64,000 nucleotides of DNA. Origin: Vulcanimicrobiota bacterium (GTDB lineage: Bacteria; Vulcanimicrobiota; Vulcanimicrobiia; Vulcanimicrobiales; Vulcanimicrobiaceae). Shown piece by piece: positions 6,355 to 15,506 of the stretch. A program made the position numbers and the translations under genes. Every line of letters starts with the position of its first letter. Position 1 is the first letter of the stretch. The notes under the pieces are model-generated. The model saw only the letters and a program-made list of their open reading frames with translations, did not search any database and was not told the origin of the DNA. The stretch spans positions 62,001 through 126,000 of the forward strand of contig DAIDGX010000008.1 of the NCBI GenBank assembly GCA_027452165.1, read 5' to 3'.

Positions 6355-6789
6355 TCAGTGTCGGACGACGAGCACGGGCACGTCGGCGCGGCGCAACACC
6401 CCTTCGGCGACGCTGCCGATGAAGAGGCGTGAAAGCCCCTTGCGGCCATGCGTGCCAAGCACGATCAAATCGGCGTGGACCGACGTTGCGGTAGCAAGAA
6501 TCTCCTCGACCGCGTCGCCTTCGCCGGTGACCGTTGCCGGGGTGAGACCGTAGGTTGCGCACGTTGCGCTCGCCTCGCTCAACATCTGCGCTCCGTCTTT
6601 GCGCATGATCTCGATCGCATCGACGGGGTAGGGCGTTTCGTAGCCCGCGACCGCGAGCAGTTTGGAGACGTCAATGACGTTGACGAGCGTCACCTTTGCT
6701 TTGGCTAATGTCGCTACGTCGCACGCTTGCCGGAGGGCCGCTTGCGCGGCCTCCGATGCGTCGACGGCGACGAGTATCGATGAAAACAT
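6355..6789 (-). CDS. universal stress protein, UspA family
   Basis: 144 residues, a single Usp domain. It starts with the strand ILVAVDASEAAQ and ends with the ATP-binding-type signature GTHGRKGLSRLFIGSVAEGV followed by PVLVVRH. Such proteins are cytosolic and induced in growth arrest, hypoxia or stress; the G-x2-G-x9-G(S/T) pattern suggests the nucleotide-binding subclass. It lies immediately after the cytochrome oxidase subunit I gene on the same strand (1-base gap), so it probably belongs to that operon. Confidence 0.93.
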   Translation of the reverse strand: MFSSILVAVDASEAAQAALRQACDVATLAKAKVTLVNVIDVSKLLAVAGYETPYPVDAIEIMRKDGAQMLSEASATCATYGLTPATVTGEGDAVEEILATATSVHADLIVLGTHGRKGLSRLFIGSVAEGVLRRADVPVLVVRH

Positions 6790-6790
6790 T

Positions 6791-8431
6791 TCACCACGTC
6801 CTCATGCCTGGAGCTAAGAATCCCTGCGTATGCATCAATTCCGCGATGGGTCCCGCGTACGCGAGCACCGCGAGGACGAGCGCAACGACGCCCCAGCGGA
6901 AGATACGATCGAAGATGGCCGGCGTCGCTCCCGATTCCTCGGACGGCGTCGCGAAGTCCGCGTCCATCGTTTGCGTCTTCCGGTTTGCGACGAGCGTTCC
7001 TATAGCGACGACCGCAAACATCATCGCGCTGACAAACAGGATCGTTCCGCCGGCGGCGGCGACGAGATTGTAGGGGTGCCAGAGGGTGGCGACGGCGCTT
7101 CCTAGGTAGTCGACGCTCGCGGTGCGGCGCGGTTCGCCCATGAGGCCCACGAGGTGCATCGCCATCGACATGACGAGCATGCCGACGAACCATAGGCGCG
7201 CTTGCCAGAGCGCCCACGTCTTCGACCAGAGTTCACGGCCGGTCAACTTTGGAATGAGCCAATAGGCCGTGCCGAGGAATGTGAGCGCGGCCGGTCCGCC
7301 CACGGTCACGTGGAAGTGACCGACCACCCAGATGGTGTTGTGAACGAGCAGATCCATGTTGTACGACGCGTTGACGAGGCCGCCGAATCCGCCCAGGATG
7401 AAGAGCAGCATCGCGTACCCGGTCGCGGCGAACGCGGGGTTATCCCACGGCAGCGAGCGTGCCGTCGCCCAGAAGCCGATCTTGCCGAGCGTGCGCGCTT
7501 TCAACTCGAACGACGCGAAGATCGCAAACGCGGTTAAGAACGACGGGATAGCGACGCCGTAGGTAAGGACGGTGTGTAGCATCTTCCATCGATCGGCGAT
7601 GCCTGGCTCGAGAAACTCGTGATGGATGCCGACCGGCGTCGAGAGCAACAGCAAGAAGATGAACGTGAGCCGGGTCAGGCTGTCGGAGAAGAGATGACCC
7701 TTGTAGTACGTCGGCACGATGTTATACCACGCAATGTACGCGCCCATGATCCAGAAATAGACGAGCGGGTGGCCGAAGTACCAAAAGAGCAGACGCGTGA
7801 GCAACACATTGACGCCCGGCGTCCAGCCGAACGCCCACGGTATCAGGATGCCGATCACTTCGGTCGCAACGCCGAGTGTGGCGATCCACCACATGAGAAA
7901 GGTCGTGGCAGCGCAGAAGGCTGGAAGCGGAATGCGCTCGCCGCGATGCGTGCGTCGCCACCAGATCACGTTTGCGAAGATGTCGGTGGCGACCAGCCAC
8001 GTGCCGACGATCAACAACGTTGCGCCGATGTAGAACCACGGACTTGCCTTGAGCGGCGCGTAGAACGTGTAGAGCACGGTCGCATTACCGGCTAGGATCT
8101 CGTAGGCCGCCATCAGCGTCCCCGCGAGCATCACCCACCAGCCGAGCCACCCGATCACGAGCAAGCGCGCGCGCGGGATCGAACGATAGGTTACGAACGT
8201 CGAGAGGCCGGTGATGAAAAACGTCGTGAAGACGAGCGCCATCATCACGCCGTGCGTGGTGAGGATCCGGTAGTAGTCGAACCACGGGGGCGCCGTGATC
8301 GCATCGGCGCGCGAAAAGACCTGAAGCAAGCCGAAGAGTGCGCCGAGAACGAACGCGACGGTTCCGGTATAGACGTGGGCGATGACGAGGCGGTTCTCCG
8401 CGCGTTGGGCGCGGTCTGCAGATGCGCTCAT
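6791..8431 (-). CDS. cbaA: B-family (ba3-type) haem-copper oxidase subunit I
   Basis: 546 residues with about 13 membrane helices. Ligand motifs are in the expected order: an early haem histidine (TTHGVMMALVF), the CuB segment with the cross-link-type His-Pro-x-x-Tyr (YFGHPLVYFW), the His pair (VGIHHEF) and the VVGHFHVTVG segment binding both haems. The tyrosine position and the short neighbouring subunits point to a ba3-type terminal oxidase, a proton-pumping enzyme usually with high oxygen affinity. The operon order here is subunit IIa, II, I, Usp. Symbol given by family resemblance. Confidence 0.93.
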   Translation of the reverse strand: MSASADRAQRAENRLVIAHVYTGTVAFVLGALFGLLQVFSRADAITAPPWFDYYRILTTHGVMMALVFTTFFITGLSTFVTYRSIPRARLLVIGWLGWWVMLAGTLMAAYEILAGNATVLYTFYAPLKASPWFYIGATLLIVGTWLVATDIFANVIWWRRTHRGERIPLPAFCAATTFLMWWIATLGVATEVIGILIPWAFGWTPGVNVLLTRLLFWYFGHPLVYFWIMGAYIAWYNIVPTYYKGHLFSDSLTRLTFIFLLLLSTPVGIHHEFLEPGIADRWKMLHTVLTYGVAIPSFLTAFAIFASFELKARTLGKIGFWATARSLPWDNPAFAATGYAMLLFILGGFGGLVNASYNMDLLVHNTIWVVGHFHVTVGGPAALTFLGTAYWLIPKLTGRELWSKTWALWQARLWFVGMLVMSMAMHLVGLMGEPRRTASVDYLGSAVATLWHPYNLVAAAGGTILFVSAMMFAVVAIGTLVANRKTQTMDADFATPSEESGATPAIFDRIFRWGVVALVLAVLAYAGPIAELMHTQGFLAPGMRTW

Positions 8432-8432
8432 G

Positions 8433-8900
8433 CTAGATCACCTCGATCTTCGCGAACATGTTTTGATGACCGATGCCGCAGTATTCATGACAGAGCAGCA
8501 AGTAGGTACCCTTCTTCGTAAACGTATGCGTTTCGGTGTTGACCCAACCGGGGACCACCATCATGTTGATGTCCGTGTCCGGGACGAAGAATCCATGAAC
8601 GACGTCGGGGCTCGTGACGTAGAACGTGACGGTGCTGCCCACCGGAACCCTCAGGTCGCTCGGCGTGAACTGGAAGACCTGGGCGACGTAATAGGCTTCG
8701 TAGCGGTGGTCGCCGATCTGACGAAGACCGGGCTTGTCGAACGGCGGCGTCTGCGCGACCTTGGTCGGGTCGATCGTCTGCATGCCGGAAGGCGGATTGA
8801 TGTTGTCAGCGATCGACGCAAAGCCGATCGCCCCTAAGAAGACGACCAGCATGGCGGCGCCGAAAATCATCCAAAGGCGCTCGTAACGATGGATGTGCAT
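8433..8900 (-). CDS. cbaB: cytochrome ba3 oxidase subunit II (CuA)
   Basis: 155 residues. One N-terminal membrane helix (about 10-30) anchors a periplasmic cupredoxin domain. The CuA ligands are complete: H102, then CHEYCGIGHQNM with C137, E139 carbonyl, C141, H145 and M148. The single helix and short length are those of B-family oxidases rather than the two-helix mitochondrial type. It accepts electrons from cytochrome c and passes them to subunit I. The stop is separated from the subunit I start by one base. Confidence 0.93.
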   Translation of the reverse strand: MHIHRYERLWMIFGAAMLVVFLGAIGFASIADNINPPSGMQTIDPTKVAQTPPFDKPGLRQIGDHRYEAYYVAQVFQFTPSDLRVPVGSTVTFYVTSPDVVHGFFVPDTDINMMVVPGWVNTETHTFTKKGTYLLLCHEYCGIGHQNMFAKIEVI

Positions 8901-9035: not shown

Positions 9036-9114
9036 ATCCCTCCAAGTGGTGACAAGAGGCTACCGATGCTACGCTAGCTTCTCGCCATGAAGCCCTTGAG
9101 AACATCGTGCGAAG

Positions 9115-9840
9115 GTGCCCGTCCTGAGCGTACCTAAGCCCCGTTTGGTGAAGCGCATCTTGATCGTTGACGACGAGCCGCAGATCGGGGAGGTGCTGAG
9201 CGCCTATCTGCAGCGCGAGGGCTTCGAAACGATCGTTCGCGAGACGGTTGCCGGGGCGGCCGCGGAGCTCGAAGGCGGGTTACCCGACCTCCTGATCCTC
9301 GATATCACCCTGCCCGACGGTAGCGGCCTCGATATCCTACGCTCGATCCAGGAGCATGGCGTTCCGGTGATCCTGCTGACCGCGCGAGCCGACGAGGTCG
9401 ATCGCATCGTCGGGCTTGAGCTTGGGGCCGACGATTACGTCACGAAGCCGTTCTCGGCGCGCGAAGTGGTTGCGCGCGTGCGCGCCGTGATGCGACGCTC
9501 GGGCGAGGTGCCCGCTGCCGCGAACGGCAGCGAACCCGAGCAGCGCATACGTATCGGTGGGCTTGAGGTCGATCTTGGGGCCCATGAGGTGCGCATCGGC
9601 GGCGAGGGCGTGCCGCTGACCCCGTCGGAGTTTCGCATTCTTACGGTGCTCGGCGAGCATCCGGGCCAGGTTTTCACGCGCGCGCAATTGCTCGACCATC
9701 TGCACGACGATGGATCGATCTTCGAACGCACGCTCGACCGTCATATCAACAACCTGCGCAAAAAGATCGAACCTAATCCGCAAGAGCCCGAGTACGTGCT
9801 GACGGTCTATGGCGTCGGTTACAAGATGAGAAAGCCGTGA
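9115..9840 (+). CDS. OmpR/PhoB-family response regulator
   Basis: 241 residues from a GTG. The receiver domain has the acidic pair in LIVDDEPQ (D19, D20), the phosphoacceptor in ILDITLPDGSG (D63), T89 in LLTARAD and K111 in VTKPF. A C-terminal winged-helix DNA-binding domain follows, with TPSEFRILTVLGEHPGQVF and DRHINNLRKKIE. The start could instead be TTG or GTG at 9145/9148, which would remove ten poorly conserved residues. It is transcribed away from the oxidase operon and overlaps the next gene by 4 bases, so it probably controls one or both neighbouring units. Confidence 0.9.
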   Translation: MPVLSVPKPRLVKRILIVDDEPQIGEVLSAYLQREGFETIVRETVAGAAAELEGGLPDLLILDITLPDGSGLDILRSIQEHGVPVILLTARADEVDRIVGLELGADDYVTKPFSAREVVARVRAVMRRSGEVPAAANGSEPEQRIRIGGLEVDLGAHEVRIGGEGVPLTPSEFRILTVLGEHPGQVFTRAQLLDHLHDDGSIFERTLDRHINNLRKKIEPNPQEPEYVLTVYGVGYKMRKP

Positions 9841-10523
9841 TCGAACGCGACGCGGAGCGCGATGCCATCCTCCATTGCCTCGACCTTGCGATGATGCAAG
9901 AGTTCGATGAAGCCAAACGTCTGCTCGAACCATACGACAACGCGATCGCCGGGCGTCTGTTTTTGCTCGTCTGCGAACTCGAACAGCGGGAGCAGGCGCG
10001 CGCGCGGGCCGTTGCGGTGACGCGTCACGAGATCGGCAACGCGCTCTCGATCGCGCAGGCTAATCTGGAAGGCATGGCCGACGGGGTGCTCGAGGCAACG
10101 CCGCAGCGCCTGGAGGCGGTGGTGCGATCGCTGCGCTCGGCGGGCGCGCTGTTGGACGAGTTGCGACGCATCCCGGCGCGCAACGATATTCGTGACGTGG
10201 GCGACGAGCGGATGGCGCTTGCCGAGTTGATCGAGGCCAACGTCGCGGCGATTACGGGGCTTGCGAGCGAGAAGGGCGTGCAGGTCACGTACGTGCGTAC
10301 GCCCGGCTCCGAACATTGCCGCGGCGATGCGACGCACGTCCGGCGTATGGTCCGCAAGGCGGTCATCGACGCCGTTCGCTATGCTCCGCCGCACGGCTCG
10401 GTCGAGTTGAGCGTCCCCACGGGCGACAGCCAATTGGCGGTCGCGATTCGTGATGCCGCCTCGAACGGCCATGGAGCGTTACAACGGATGATCAGCATCC
10501 GTCTGCCGATCGTGGCAGAGTGA
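9837..10523 (+). CDS. soluble histidine-kinase-like protein with degenerate ATPase domain
   Basis: 228 residues, GTG start overlapping the response regulator stop (GTGA). An N-terminal helical segment leads to an H-box, RHEIGNALSIAQANLEGM, with the likely phosphoacceptor H64. The C-terminal region has the outline of a HATPase domain (GDATHVRRMVRKAVIDAVRYAPPHG), but the N-box asparagine is absent. No DxGxG or GxG motifs can be found before the short C-terminus. There is no membrane helix or sensor domain. It is probably a partner of the adjacent regulator, acting as a phosphotransfer protein or a cytosolic modulator rather than a normal kinase (inference). Confidence 0.75.
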   Translation: MIERDAERDAILHCLDLAMMQEFDEAKRLLEPYDNAIAGRLFLLVCELEQREQARARAVAVTRHEIGNALSIAQANLEGMADGVLEATPQRLEAVVRSLRSAGALLDELRRIPARNDIRDVGDERMALAELIEANVAAITGLASEKGVQVTYVRTPGSEHCRGDATHVRRMVRKAVIDAVRYAPPHGSVELSVPTGDSQLAVAIRDAASNGHGALQRMISIRLPIVAE

Positions 10524-10527
10524 CGCT

Positions 10528-11031
10528 CTACGCGTGTCCTTGGCGCGCGGCCCGGGCGACGTCGTGCTCGTGCTCGCCTACGATGCGCACGACCTCGTTT
10601 GCAACCCACGTAAGGAAGGTCTGCAGGCTGCGCTCGGCCGCGCCGTGCAGCACCGTGGTATCGGTGCCCGCGCCGAGCGCGCCGAGTGGGGGTTCGTAAC
10701 TGCCTTGGAGCCACAGCTCCGATTCGTCGTTGCCGTTCGGCGTCACCGTCAGCGTGCCGTCGAAACGCGGGAAGAGTTGACGGTTGTGCTCCGCTTCGAG
10801 TTGGAGGCGGCACTCCCATCGCATCGGACGCGCTTCGACGGCGGCTGAGACGGGAACGCTAATCGCTCCGTCGAGCGGCAGGTGCACGTCGCGTAATCCC
10901 ATCGAGAGCGTGACGTGTTCGTACGGTGCGCGTCGCGCCGCGATACTTTCGAGAATGCCGAGCGCGGCGTCGCGCGCGAGTGTGGCAGGGAGATGCATCG
11001 GCGCATAGATTTCAATCTTCGAACTGCTCAT
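10528..11031 (-). CDS. hypothetical protein, SRPBCC-like paralogue A of a three-member local family
   Basis: 167 residues, no signal peptide or membrane helix. Shares with the two neighbours at 11028-11516 and 12094-12570 the block FPRFDGTL (87-94), then LQGSYEPPLGALG and a long C-terminal amphipathic helix. The strand, G-x-Y-x-PPLG turn and terminal helix resemble the end of an SRPBCC/START (helix-grip) fold, which often binds hydrophobic ligands. That fold assignment is inferred. This is the most divergent copy: the GAAFDA motif of the others reads GAGTDT. Its ATG overlaps the upstream paralogue's stop (ATGA). It is convergent with the kinase-like gene. Confidence 0.75.
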   Translation of the reverse strand: MSSSKIEIYAPMHLPATLARDAALGILESIAARRAPYEHVTLSMGLRDVHLPLDGAISVPVSAAVEARPMRWECRLQLEAEHNRQLFPRFDGTLTVTPNGNDESELWLQGSYEPPLGALGAGTDTTVLHGAAERSLQTFLTWVANEVVRIVGEHEHDVARAARQGHA

Positions 11032-11516
11032 GAGGCTTCGTGCCCTTTCTCGTGCTCTTCGCTGCGGTAGCGGTTCTCGATGTCGCGTCCGATCCGGCGC
11101 AAGAACTCGCGGGCGGTTGCCGAGGCGATGCGAGAGCCGAGAACCGCGTCGAAGGCCGCACCGACGATGCCGAGCGGTGGATCGTAGGTTCCCTGTAACT
11201 CGAGCACGCAAACATTGAAGTCTTCGTCCGCACGTACGGTGAGCGTGCCGTCGAAATCGGGAAACGGGCCACCGCGATTCGGGGTCCAGCGCACGGTCCA
11301 TGGTTCGTCGAAATGCAGTGGATCGGTTCCCTTGCCGTACTGCACGAGCACGTCCTTTTGAAGCCCGGCGGCGGATCCGTCGAGGTCGATCGGGACGCGC
11401 AGCCGGACCACTTGATGCTCGCCCGACTCGGCAAACGCTCCGAGCGCAGCGTCGAGGTGCGTGCGCGCGCGTGCGTACGGGCAATGGAGGTAATAGCGCT
11501 GGAGCAGCGTGGTCAT
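11028..11516 (-). CDS. hypothetical protein, SRPBCC-like paralogue B
   Basis: 162 residues, cytosolic by appearance. It carries the family block GGPFPDFDGTL (83-92), then LELQGTYDPPLG, then GAAFDAVLGSRIASATAREFL in the final helix. It is closest to the copy at 12094-12570. The ATG at 11516 is used because the N-terminus then lines up with the paralogues; the open frame runs 54 codons further upstream with no conserved sequence. It is the first gene of a two-gene minus-strand unit and lies 11 bases downstream of the Fur-family gene, which is on the same strand, so Fur-B-A is probably one operon. Confidence 0.78.
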   Translation of the reverse strand: MTTLLQRYYLHCPYARARTHLDAALGAFAESGEHQVVRLRVPIDLDGSAAGLQKDVLVQYGKGTDPLHFDEPWTVRWTPNRGGPFPDFDGTLTVRADEDFNVCVLELQGTYDPPLGIVGAAFDAVLGSRIASATAREFLRRIGRDIENRYRSEEHEKGHEAS

Positions 11517-11527
11517 CGGCGCAGAGC

Positions 11528-11950
11528 TTAGCTCGCTACGGTGGTCGAGGTCGTGCACGTATGGCACCGGCCGAGCAGGCTCACGACGGAGTCGCTGACC
11601 TGCGCCCCAAGTTCGCTTGCGACAACCGTGACCACGTCGGGTGGAAGCGCGAATCGTACGTTGCTCACGTTGCCGCACTGGATGCAGCGGAAATGAGCGT
11701 GCGCGGGTCCGGCTGCTTCGTAAAACGCGCTATCGGCTCCGGGCAGCGTGATCTCCGAGACCATGCCGAGATCGCGCAGGCGCGTCAGGGCACGATAGAC
11801 GGTCGTGAATCCAATGCCGGGGCGGCGCGTCCGTGCAAGCTCGTAGAGGTCGGACATCGGGAGATGGCGACCAACCCCCTGCTCCTGAACGATGTCGTAG
11901 ACCAAGCGGTGATTCTTGGAAAGCCGGGTGTCGTCGAGCGTAGCAGTCAT
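11528..11950 (-). CDS. Fur-family metalloregulator (Fur/PerR/Zur type)
   Basis: 140 residues. The winged-helix half contains RLSKNHRLVYDIVQ and GFTTVYRALTRLRDLGMV (the recognition helix with TTVYRAL). The dimerisation half has AHFRCIQCG and, near the end, GRCHTC, the two CxxC pairs of the structural zinc site. The sensory site includes H-A-H before the first CxxC. Whether it senses iron, peroxide or zinc cannot be decided from the sequence. It heads a unit with two SRPBCC-like proteins and is divergent from the third, so it probably regulates that family. Confidence 0.9.
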   Translation of the reverse strand: MTATLDDTRLSKNHRLVYDIVQEQGVGRHLPMSDLYELARTRRPGIGFTTVYRALTRLRDLGMVSEITLPGADSAFYEAAGPAHAHFRCIQCGNVSNVRFALPPDVVTVVASELGAQVSDSVVSLLGRCHTCTTSTTVAS

Positions 11951-12093
11951 ACTGATTGCATCTGTCCTGTAGGAAGAGTGATTGACCGCAGTCTAGCGCC
12001 GCCTCGGGAAGAGGTAGTGAAAGACTTTTCCAGGCGTCTTCTTCATCGCGCGCTACGGCGGCGGTACGCTCGGTCCGAGAGGAAGGTACACCC

Positions 12094-12570
12094 ATGGAAC
12101 GAGTGCGGGCGAGCGTCGCCCTTGCGTGTCCGCAACACGAGGCGGAGGCCCTGCTTCCGCGGGTCTTCGAGCGCTATCGCGGCGCTGACGGTATCATTCG
12201 TTTCCCGCTTCACGTCGCGCTCGAGGATTTCGGCGTGCCGCTCGGTCTTGAGATCGGACGCGAGGTCGAGGTGCGGGTGACCCGGCGTCGCGACGAGCAG
12301 AACTTGAACGAGATCTATGCCATCACATGGCAACCGGCGGGCGGCGGGCCGTTCCCGGCGTTCGATGGGACGTTGATCCTTTGGAGCGAGGAGCACCCAG
12401 CCGCATGTTATCTCGAACTCGACGGCACCTACGAACCGCCGCTCGGGCACGTCGTCGGTGCAGCGTTTGACGCGACGATCGGCCATCTGATCGCCGAGCG
12501 TACGGCGACGCAGTTTCTCCACGACATCGCCGCTGCGATTGGTACCCTGCGCGCCTCCGTGCGCACCTGA
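12094..12570 (+). CDS. hypothetical protein, SRPBCC-like paralogue C
   Basis: 158 residues, soluble. It carries the family blocks GGGPFPAFDGTL (83-94), LELDGTYEPPLG and VGAAFDATIGHLIAERTATQFL. It is divergent from the Fur-family gene with a gap of 143 bases that must hold both promoters. It is followed six bases later by the P-type ATPase gene, with which it probably forms an operon ending in a universal stress protein. Ligand and role are unknown; the repeated association with a metalloregulator and an ion pump suggests a stress or ion-homeostasis function. Confidence 0.78.
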   Translation: MERVRASVALACPQHEAEALLPRVFERYRGADGIIRFPLHVALEDFGVPLGLEIGREVEVRVTRRRDEQNLNEIYAITWQPAGGGPFPAFDGTLILWSEEHPAACYLELDGTYEPPLGHVVGAAFDATIGHLIAERTATQFLHDIAAAIGTLRASVRT

Positions 12571-12576
12571 CGGTTC

Positions 12577-15066
12577 ATGCTGACGCCGGCGGATATACCG
12601 CTCGCCGCAGCGAGCGTCGAACCGCTCGACGACGACGAAGCGGCTCGGCGTCTGATCGCATATGGGCCGAACGTGCTCGTGCCGGAGCGGCACGGGCATC
12701 CGTTGCTGTGGGCGTTGCGTTTCTTTGCGGATCCGATGGTCGTGCTCCTCATCGTCGCCGGCATCACCTACGTGGTGCTTGGCGATCGCTTTGATGCGTC
12801 GATTGCGTTCGGCGCGCTCCTACCGATCTTTCTCGTGACGGCGGTACTGGAGCATCGATCGGAGCGCGCGCTCGAGGCATTGAAGAATGCGGCGTTACCG
12901 ACGGCGCGCGTACGGCGCGCCGCGCGCGAGCTCGTCATCGACGCACGCGAGATCGTGCCGGGCGACATGATGCTCGTGCAGGAAGGCGACGTCTTCGTTG
13001 CTGACGGCACGCTCGTATCGGGTGACGTCTTGATCGTTGACGAATCGGCGCTGACCGGTGAATCGCACCCGGTGCTCAAGGAGCGGGAGGCCGATACGGT
13101 CTTCGCGGGGACCGCGCTGCGCAGCGGGCGCGGGGTGGTCCTGGTTACGGCGACCGGCGCTGCGACACGGTATGGCCGCATCGGGACCTTGATGTCGCAA
13201 ATGCACGAGGCGTCCACGCCGATCGAGCGGGCGATCCGGAAGGTGGTGTATCAGATCGGTTCGGCCGTGCTGGTATTGTGCGTGGCGGTCGTCATCCTCG
13301 AACGCTCGCACGGCGAACTCTGGCCCGCCGCGTTGATCGCCGGAGTGAGTCTTGCGATGGCGGCACTGCCCGAAGAGCTGCCCGCGGTCTATACGCTCTA
13401 CCTGGCGCTTGGCGCGTGGCGACTCGCAAAGGCGCATGCGCTCGTACGGCGGCTTGCGAGCGTGGAGACGCTCGGCGCGGCGAACGTCATCTGCGTCGAT
13501 AAGACCGGAACGCTTACCTACGGGACGCTCGACGTTGCGGAGGTGAGCGCGATGCCGGGATGGTCGCGCGACGATGTCGTCGCATGCGCGGTGCGCGCGT
13601 GCGAAGCCAAACCCTTCGATCCGCTCGATCAGGCGATCCTCCGCTATGCCGAGCGTACCGGTGCGCCGGCCGGCGTGCTCGAGCGCGAGCATCCGGTGCG
13701 CTCGTATCCGTTCGACGCGATGCATCGGCGCACGACCAAAGTATGGTCGCGCGACGGCGGCGTGCTGGTGGTTGCGAAGGGCGCCCCCGAGGCGATCGCA
13801 GCATTGAGCATCGGCGACGACGAGCGCCGTTCCGCGTTCGCGCGCGAAGCGGAACGCTATGCGGCCGAAGGCATGCGGGTCATCGCGATCGCGAGCACCA
13901 CGCACGCTGCGGGCGATGCGGCGCGGGCGCAGGACGAACGCGGATTCGAACTCGTTGGGCTCATGGCGTTGAGCGATCCCGTGCGCGAGAGCGTGCCGGA
14001 GGCGCTCGTTGCGTGCGAACGCGCGCGGATAGCGGTGATCATGGTCACGGGCGATCATCCGGCGACGGCCGAGGCGGTGGCCCGTCAGGTGCGCTTGCAC
14101 AGTTCCACAACGATCACCGGCGCACAACTCGAACGGCTCGACGATCTCGGGTTGGTGCGGGCGCTCGATGAGGGAGCGCGTATCTTTGCGCGCATCGCCC
14201 CCGAGCAGAAGCTGCGCATCGTGACGGCGCTGCACCTTCGCGGTGACGTCGTGGCAATGACCGGCGACGGAACCAACGACGCGCTTGCCATGCGCGAAGC
14301 GGATATCGGGGTTGCGATGGGCAAGCGTGGGACCGACGTTGCGCGGGCCGCCGCCGACCTCATTTTGCTCGACGACGAGTTCGCGACGATCGCCGGCGCC
14401 ATCGCGGGCGGGCGGCGGATTTTTCGCAATTTGCGTCGCGCGTTCCGGTATCTCAACGCGTTTCATCTGCCGCTGATCGTTGCGGCGGTTGCGACGCCTG
14501 CGCTCGGTGTGCCGCTGCTGCTCTTACCCGTGCATATGGTGGCACTCGAGCTGATCGTGCATCCGACCTCGGCGCTCGTGTACGAGAACGATGAAGGCGG
14601 CGAGGACGTGATGACGCTTGCGCCGCGCGGCAACGCGGCGGGCCTGCTACGCGGCGATGATTGGGTGCGCCCCATGATGTTGGGAATGACGCTGGCGATT
14701 GCCTCGCTCGGGATGTTTCTGTGGGCGCTTGCCGCGGGCGAAGGCGAGGCGCTTGCGCGGGGCGTCGGGCTTGCGACGCTGCTTGCCGGCGAGATGGCGA
14801 TGGTCGTCGCGGAGCGATCGTCGGACGTGCCGGTCTGGCGTCAATCGCTCAGGGATAATCCGCGATTGCTGCTCGTTCTCGCCGGAACGTTCGCATTCAT
14901 CATCGCACTGCTCTACGTTACGCCGGTCGCGAGCGCGTTTCGAATCGCGACGCCATCGATGTCGCAATTTGCGTTCGCGTGTGCCGTCGGGTTACTCGCC
15001 ACACTGTGGTTCGAGCCGTTCAAAGGCGTCGTCGCGCGCAGGCGCGCAGGGAGGTCCACGGCGTGA
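12577..15066 (+). CDS. P-type cation-transporting ATPase (P2-like, CtpF-like)
   Basis: 829 residues. Motifs in order: the actuator loop VDESALTGESHPV, the M4 ion site AALPEELPAVYTLYLALG, the phosphorylation site CVDKTGTLT (D308), the nucleotide-binding KGAPE segment, MTGDGTNDALAMREADIGVAMG, and the M5-M6 pair with PVHMVALELIVHPTSALVYE. PEELP places it with P2-like Ca2+/Mn2+ or related pumps rather than copper or zinc CPx pumps. The transported ion is not certain. The next gene, a universal stress protein, overlaps by 4 bases. In mycobacteria a similar pump (CtpF) belongs to the dormancy regulon with Usp proteins. Confidence 0.92.
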   Translation: MLTPADIPLAAASVEPLDDDEAARRLIAYGPNVLVPERHGHPLLWALRFFADPMVVLLIVAGITYVVLGDRFDASIAFGALLPIFLVTAVLEHRSERALEALKNAALPTARVRRAARELVIDAREIVPGDMMLVQEGDVFVADGTLVSGDVLIVDESALTGESHPVLKEREADTVFAGTALRSGRGVVLVTATGAATRYGRIGTLMSQMHEASTPIERAIRKVVYQIGSAVLVLCVAVVILERSHGELWPAALIAGVSLAMAALPEELPAVYTLYLALGAWRLAKAHALVRRLASVETLGAANVICVDKTGTLTYGTLDVAEVSAMPGWSRDDVVACAVRACEAKPFDPLDQAILRYAERTGAPAGVLEREHPVRSYPFDAMHRRTTKVWSRDGGVLVVAKGAPEAIAALSIGDDERRSAFAREAERYAAEGMRVIAIASTTHAAGDAARAQDERGFELVGLMALSDPVRESVPEALVACERARIAVIMVTGDHPATAEAVARQVRLHSSTTITGAQLERLDDLGLVRALDEGARIFARIAPEQKLRIVTALHLRGDVVAMTGDGTNDALAMREADIGVAMGKRGTDVARAAADLILLDDEFATIAGAIAGGRRIFRNLRRAFRYLNAFHLPLIVAAVATPALGVPLLLLPVHMVALELIVHPTSALVYENDEGGEDVMTLAPRGNAAGLLRGDDWVRPMMLGMTLAIASLGMFLWALAAGEGEALARGVGLATLLAGEMAMVVAERSSDVPVWRQSLRDNPRLLLVLAGTFAFIIALLYVTPVASAFRIATPSMSQFAFACAVGLLATLWFEPFKGVVARRRAGRSTA

Positions 15067-15506
15067 AGATCGTCGTTGCAACCGATGGTTCGAGTGTCGC
15101 CAAGCAGGCGCTGTGTGCCGCGTTCGATCTGGCGCGTGAATTCCGGACGCCTCCCGAGATTCACGTCGTCGCGGTGGTCGATTACTTTACGCCGCCGGCC
15201 GGCCTTGCGAAGGCGGTCGCCGACGCACCCGATCTCCTGGCTGACGAAGCCCAGAGGGCGCTTGGCGGAGCGCGCGAGCATGCGGCGTCGTATGGTGTGG
15301 AGATCGAGACCCACGTGCTGCGCGGCCACGTCAGCGTGCAGGTGTTGGAGTACGCGCGTTCGATCGGTGCGGCGCTGATCGCCGTGGGGACGCACGGGCG
15401 GCGCGGGCTCGCGCGGGTGCTCCTCGGCAGCACGTGCGAAAACCTCGTGCGCCAGTCCGAGATTCCGCTGCTGACCGTCCGTGAGCATGGCGCTGCCGAC
15501 GGCTGA
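15063..15506 (+). CDS. universal stress protein, UspA family
   Basis: 147 residues from GTG 15063, which overlaps the ATPase stop (GTGA). It begins KIVVATDGSSVAKQAL and ends with GTHGRRGLARVLLGSTCENLV then PLLTVREHG, the nucleotide-binding-type signature of UspA proteins. It is the last gene of the paralogue C-ATPase-Usp unit. The open frame extends upstream into the ATPase gene but the homologous part begins at this GTG. Confidence 0.92.
   Translation: MKIVVATDGSSVAKQALCAAFDLAREFRTPPEIHVVAVVDYFTPPAGLAKAVADAPDLLADEAQRALGGAREHAASYGVEIETHVLRGHVSVQVLEYARSIGAALIAVGTHGRRGLARVLLGSTCENLVRQSEIPLLTVREHGAADG

Follow-up and report, generated by a model that had tools for sequence, protein, structure and literature searches.

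A class-restricted family of predicted SRPBCC-fold proteins in a putative respiratory two-component regulon

Gene layout of the locus

The window, meaning the whole 64,000-nucleotide stretch that was analysed, contains three related small genes, here called A, B and C, together with genes for a Fur-family regulator, a P-type ATPase, universal stress proteins (Usp), a two-component system and a cytochrome c oxidase. The features discussed below are the following; genes were called with a codon-usage script, not a standard gene finder.

6355-6789, minus strand: universal stress protein, end of the coxII-coxI-Usp unit (Pfam Usp, E 1e-32)
6791-8431, minus strand: ba3-type (B-family) cytochrome c oxidase subunit I (PDB matches)
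8433-8900, minus strand: cytochrome c oxidase subunit II (Pfam COX2, E 6e-12)
9091-9123, plus strand: direct-repeat box in the divergent coxII / response-regulator promoter (score 20.1, the top score in the window)
9115-9840, plus strand: PhoB/OmpR-type response regulator (Pfam Response_reg, Trans_reg_C)
9837-10523, plus strand: degenerate soluble histidine kinase
10528-11031, minus strand: protein A, family member with predicted SRPBCC fold, 167 aa, last gene of the fur-B-A operon
11028-11516, minus strand: protein B, family member with predicted SRPBCC fold, 162 aa
11528-11950, minus strand: Fur-family regulator, first gene of the fur-B-A operon (Pfam FUR, E 1.5e-17)
11999-12031, plus strand: direct-repeat box (GAAGAGGTAGTGAAA core) in the divergent fur-B-A / C-ATPase-Usp promoter
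12094-12570, plus strand: protein C, family member with predicted SRPBCC fold, 158 aa, first gene of the C-ATPase-Usp operon
12577-15066, plus strand: P-type cation ATPase (Pfam E1-E2_ATPase, Cation_ATPase_C)
15063-15506, plus strand: universal stress protein (Pfam Usp, E 1.8e-28)

Two divergent transcription units, fur-B-A on the minus strand and C-ATPase-Usp on the plus strand, surround the promoter that holds the second box. The gap between fur and B is 11 bp, B and A overlap by 4 bp (ATGA, with the start of A over the stop of B), C and the ATPase gene are separated by 6 bp, and the ATPase and Usp genes overlap. All three family genes had been described as flanking fur, but A itself is not in contact with it. 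The translation start of the response regulator is probably at 9151 (VKRILIVDDE), judging from relatives (L035/L036). The product of 6791-8431 scores 373 bits against the Thermus ba3 structures 1ehk/3eh3 and at most 56 bits against A-family oxidases.

A class-wide protein family

The original prediction described A, B and C as paralogous open reading frames sharing FPxFDGTL and PPLG motifs, and this description holds. In BLASTP comparisons, B and C are 39% identical over 142 aa (E 3e-27) and A and B 29% identical over 161 aa (E 1e-11), with A matching C at E 1e-10. The motifs read FPRFDGTL and LQGSYEPPLG in A, FPDFDGTL and LQGTYDPPLG in B, and FPAFDGTL and LDGTYEPPLG in C. Two further shared elements were only partly borne out: the G-A-x-x-D-x-x-x-G motif attributed to all three deviates in its spacing in A, and the C-terminal FL pair is present but occupies an internal position in the long C-terminal helix rather than its end. 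A fourth copy is found on another contig of the same genome (G000:C26, ~107,400-107,820), beside a pyridoxamine-phosphate-oxidase-like gene.

In three rounds of searching the loci of relatives, a profile seeded with A, B and C gathered about 100 members, which places the family far beyond chance. Over 80 aligned sequences P88, G110 and P115 are invariant, and F90, G92, Y112, P114, G117, G120, D124 and A132 are conserved in at least 90%, giving the signature FPxFxGxL ... GxYxPP(L/F)GxxGxxxDxxxG. The invariant residues are mainly P, G, Y and D, located near the final strand and where the C-terminal helix begins; from the alignment they look structural, with no pointer to a particular ligand. Searched with an 80-sequence profile, 103 of the 117 class genomes contain the family, often with 2-5 copies; the 32 genomes examined from elsewhere in the phylum yielded no member. 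Two of the three named records matching the family are titled Candidatus Eremiobacterota; no match was found on plasmids, and searching the profile against PDB sequences gave nothing meaningful. This is a previously unnamed, clade-wide family.

In the family tree the three proteins belong to three different clades, each of which includes sequences from several genera, and C sits within a supported group of 8 (SH-aLRT 98). They are therefore old subfamilies shared across genera, and the earlier picture of tandem divergence at this locus is misleading. Tandem order as such recurs: it is seen in 29 of the 37 pairs of neighbouring family genes, many with a 4-bp overlap. Two loci from genomes assigned to different taxonomic families, L063 (G006) and L088 (G044), encode an identical family protein in the same gene order, which suggests shared or misassigned contigs, or recent transfer. 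A subgroup in another taxonomic family of the class (L087:3987-4466, L093:7137-7610 and L095:2053-2520) lies beside a gene for a ~1230-aa protein, and in two of these loci near an MGS-domain protein; it has another neighbourhood and no copy of the promoter box described below, and possibly a different role.

The guess of an SRPBCC/START helix-grip fold is supported by structure prediction. AlphaFold2 models from ten aligned sequences reached pLDDT 85 and pTM 0.81 for B and pLDDT 72 for A, and both follow the order strand, helix, sheet, long helix. All 50 of the Foldseek matches listed for B, and nearly all of those listed for A, are SRPBCC/START-type; between them they include ZhuI, TcmN, Bet v 1, PYL2, TTHA0849 and CoxG, and the top PDB matches of A are TTHA0849, Ara h 8 and ZhuI. 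The top matches of both proteins have probabilities of about 1.0 but TM scores of only 0.4-0.5, so the superfamily is clear and no closer relation is indicated. On the models of B and A, and on the 39% identity of C to B, all three are predicted to be SRPBCC/START helix-grip proteins. The family had been called uncharacterised, and it does lie outside the curated Pfam and NCBIfam families: no model from either reaches threshold for A, B or C. Polyketide_cyc2 (PF10604) scores 14.2 bits against B, under its gathering cut-off of 27.4 bits, and has no match in A or C, which are without any Pfam or NCBIfam match; across 80 members it gives weak matches in 26, at best E 3e-4. The likeness to Polyketide_cyc2 thus consists of these weak matches and the helix-grip topology (strand, helix, sheet, long C-terminal helix), while the family differs in its own signature, its restriction to one class and its regulon context.

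Respiratory neighbours and a shared promoter repeat

Neighbours were counted within four genes of the family in loci chosen only for holding a family gene, and were named, not exhaustively, via clusters and Pfam matches of representatives. A PhoB-type response regulator leads with 26 loci, followed by oxidase subunit II-like genes (25), the soluble histidine kinase (23), subunit I of the ba3 oxidase (19) and Usp (14); a P-type ATPase (7), a phosphoketolase (6) and an acetate kinase (5, labelled by sequence inspection only) are rarer. In an independent genome search, 27 of 38 kinase matches and 21 of 33 matches to ba3 subunit I lay within 6 kb of a family gene, against 0.5 and 0.4 expected, so that each is enriched about 50-fold over chance. 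In 40 further loci the response regulator was near the family in 23, coxI in 17 and Usp in 15. The kinase is present in 30 of the 44 genomes with the family versus 2 of the 11 without it, and the oxidase in 33 of 44 versus 3 of 11 (p about 0.004-0.005, uncorrected for kinship). The recurring neighbourhood of the family is therefore respiratory and redox-related, consisting of the response regulator, the soluble kinase and the ba3 oxidase. DUF2249 proteins are also encoded near family genes in several genomes (L083-L085, L046).

The Fur-family gene, by comparison, is a local feature of one genus. Of 21 Fur homologues (E<=1e-20), only 3 have a family gene within 6 kb, all of them in the window's genus, and the metalloregulator link of the original prediction, taken as a general one, was rejected outside that genus. 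The recurrence of the neighbourhood in relatives was accordingly confirmed in part: Usp and the P-type ATPase (7 loci) do recur, but fur does not.

Promoters were compared by enumerating spaced dyads upstream of the family and its recurring neighbours, with regions upstream of other genes in the same loci as background. The top dyad among 148,000 tested was GAAG-N7-GAAC, present in 37 of 137 regions versus 6 of 208 (p=3e-11), and when the pattern is relaxed to GAA[G/C]-N7-GAA[G/C], it is carried by 56 of the 108 unique intergenic regions against 13 of 167 (p=2e-16); the compared genomes are related, so these p-values overstate independence, and the background promoters may include some true targets. 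Shuffled sequences gave a mean of 1.8 hits. The spacing is strict: 6 and 8 nucleotides give 2 and 3 hits against 56 for 7, spacings of 5, 6 and 8 are not enriched, and enrichment returns at 18, one 11-bp step further. A second set of 40 loci came from genomes outside the discovery set, which are different species partly of the same genera; here 22 of the 45 family promoters contained the pattern, against 5 of 43 (p=1.3e-4), and 1 had it with spacing 6. Family genes without a regulator nearby carry the box as well (17 of 39), and about a third of family promoters are without a clear box (29 of 95 score <12). The promoters of family genes and of their neighbours contain no consensus site for FNR (TTGAT-N4-ATCAA), CRP or PhoB.

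The two best-scoring sites in the 64 kb are those at 9091-9123 and 11999-12031, both of which were among the 89 training sites; the mirrored window sequence held no site of score 16. The box at 11999-12031 is kept in the two other genomes of the genus, where the surrounding region is variable. Strong intergenic boxes elsewhere in the window's genome lie ahead of genes for a dihaem cytochrome, a cupredoxin similar to COX2 and an SCO1 copper chaperone, and G002 too has a box before SCO1. The regions had been selected by eye among the matched sequences at a stage when their genes were not yet known, and the cupredoxin site turned up inside the region chosen for the cytochrome site. The pattern is short and degenerate, and genome-wide, in three genomes, it has many intragenic hits, so that it is usable only after scoring and a check of position. 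At L168:2943-4473 (G000 contig 5), two boxes precede the dihaem cytochrome (DHOR) and the cupredoxin, both of which are likely to be further regulon members.

Direct repeats with an 11-bp period are the expected layout for OmpR/PhoB regulators, and such a repeat is what the target promoters contain. Given this layout, the co-location of regulator and targets, and apparent autoregulation, we infer that the window's response regulator is the protein that would bind the box. Membership of the family in this regulon is well supported on computational grounds.

Kinase, signal and roles of the family

In relatives, the linked kinase is a soluble protein of 220-290 residues that combines a HEIGN phosphoacceptor helix with a HATPase domain and in which a recognised sensor domain was not found. 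Four cysteines of the catalytic domain are each present in 20-23 of 30 kinases and tend to disappear together. Two of them, C151 and C193 (numbering of L061:10311-11138), align by phmmer with two cysteines of the SrrB structure 6paj, and this pair is present in about 20 of the 30 kinases and absent from the window's own. According to reviews, the catalytic domain of SrrB contains an intramolecular redox-active disulfide, and the role of SrrAB is respiratory and hypoxia-related (PMC8534201, PMC8774646). By their alignment, the two SrrB cysteines matching C151 and C193 would be those of the disulfide, which suggests that redox state or low oxygen is probably what switches the regulon; "low oxygen" is here a reading of gene content. 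The resemblance to SrrAB of Staphylococcus aureus lies in the respiratory targets and, in relatives, the positions of the cysteine pair. Unlike SrrB, the kinase described here is soluble, lacks PAS, HAMP and Cache domains and has two more conserved cysteines, an arrangement that is unusual for oxygen or redox sensing; the output also differs in including the SRPBCC family and the ba3 oxidase, and the window's own kinase has none of the four cysteines.

In the window's genus the kinase (9837-10523; L058:8759-9445; L059:6348-7034) has lost the cysteines, the N-box Asn and the glycine boxes and has kept the phosphoacceptor His. With neither cysteines nor ATP-binding boxes, the signal there must enter otherwise. 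The degenerate kinase occurs in the same genus in which the Fur gene heads the B-A operon, and kinase decay and the fur-led operon possibly represent a change of input signal, as one event in three genomes. The idea that the linked kinases form a pseudokinase family was dropped, as the kinase is intact in most relatives and degenerate in the window's genus and a few others. In L083, L084 and L085 (G037-G039), two or three response-regulator/kinase pairs are interleaved with three or four family genes and Usp, and one kinase set in these arrays retains only part of the cysteines.

The explanation that we favour, and consider somewhat better than even, is that the three small proteins are cytosolic ligand binders of helix-grip fold and belong to a redox or low-oxygen respiratory two-component regulon. 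Their family is restricted to the one class of Eremiobacterota, and their genes would be outputs of a regulon that tunes aerobic respiration. The response regulator (9115-9840) would bind the 11-bp-period GAA[G/C] repeat in the promoters of the family genes, the high-affinity ba3 oxidase, the Usp genes and its own gene. The source of the signal, in most relatives, would be the soluble kinase with its four catalytic-domain cysteines, two of them at the predicted SrrB redox-disulfide positions. The family proteins would bind a hydrophobic small molecule in the helix-grip cavity, with a quinone, haem or lipid of the respiratory chain as leading candidates; paralogues may be tuned to different ligands or partners, and B and A, being translationally coupled, may act as a pair. 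CoxG and COQ10 are quinone-linked proteins of the SRPBCC superfamily, and since CoxG is among the fold matches a respiratory quinone is the leading single guess, albeit a doubtful one; haem, lipid or another metabolite is as compatible with the sequences.

Other roles for the family are each less probable. The proteins could be co-sensors instead of outputs, with a ligand-bound SRPBCC protein contacting the soluble kinase and setting its activity, much as PYL acts on a phosphatase. Such a partner would suit a soluble kinase that, in relatives, has no recognised sensor domain and whose gene adjoins a family gene in 27 of 38 cases, and it would fit the interleaving of several kinase-regulator pairs with several family copies in L083-L085 and the presence of PYL2, a plant PYL receptor of the same fold, among the matches of B. 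However, the family genes usually form a separate convergent unit outside the kinase operon, they carry the box as outputs would, and the family is kept in genomes without a clear kinase, and co-sensing seems unlikely. An enzymatic role, of the aromatase/cyclase or hydratase type, on a metabolite made under the same conditions is suggested by the polyketide aromatase/cyclases ZhuI and TcmN among the closest folds. We regard it as decidedly improbable, since biosynthetic genes are not recurrent near the family and the invariant polar set typical of an active site is lacking.

The metal-linked stress function of the original prediction, tied to the Fur-family regulator and the P-type ATPase, has in its favour that fur, B and A are one operon in the window's genus, that 7 family loci have a P-type ATPase gene close by and that Nramp transporters lie near some family loci. 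Against it, fur is near the family in only three genomes of one genus, other genomes retain the family and mostly the box without fur, and no conserved set of metal ligands was seen in the family alignment; we hold this reading to be very improbable indeed. Nearly as little weight is given to a variant in which the family proteins are diffusible couplers that collect a quinone or a similar redox-active ligand from the membrane and hand it over to the four-cysteine soluble kinase. If true, it would provide a cytosolic route from the state of the respiratory chain to a two-component system and a high-affinity oxidase.

Returning to the favoured explanation, that of regulon outputs binding a ligand, it gives a functional setting to an unannotated small family that nearly 90% of the genomes of a poorly cultivated class encode, as a rule in several copies, and as a prediction it names the regulator, its DNA site and the target genes. 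The cultivated relative Vulcanimicrobium alpinus is reported to grow at 1-20% O2 (PMC9758169). Known systems resemble parts of it. CoxG and COQ10-type proteins (8uds; 2ns9, "Pfam COXG") share the fold match and the respiratory setting, but no Mo-CO dehydrogenase genes are found among the recurring neighbour clusters of the family, the signature differs, and the family has a charged tail in place of a hydrophobic C-terminal anchor (the best 19-residue hydropathy in the family is 2.08, the median 1.04). The DosR regulon is a low-oxygen stress regulon with Usp and electron-transfer or metabolic genes. Similarly, the lxa locus of Burkholderia cenocepacia is a low-oxygen stress locus in which Usp genes are grouped with electron-transfer and metabolic genes (PMC6127331). 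The locus described here shares that grouping with both and differs from them in its PhoB-type regulator, 11-bp direct repeat, ba3 oxidase and clade-specific SRPBCC family.
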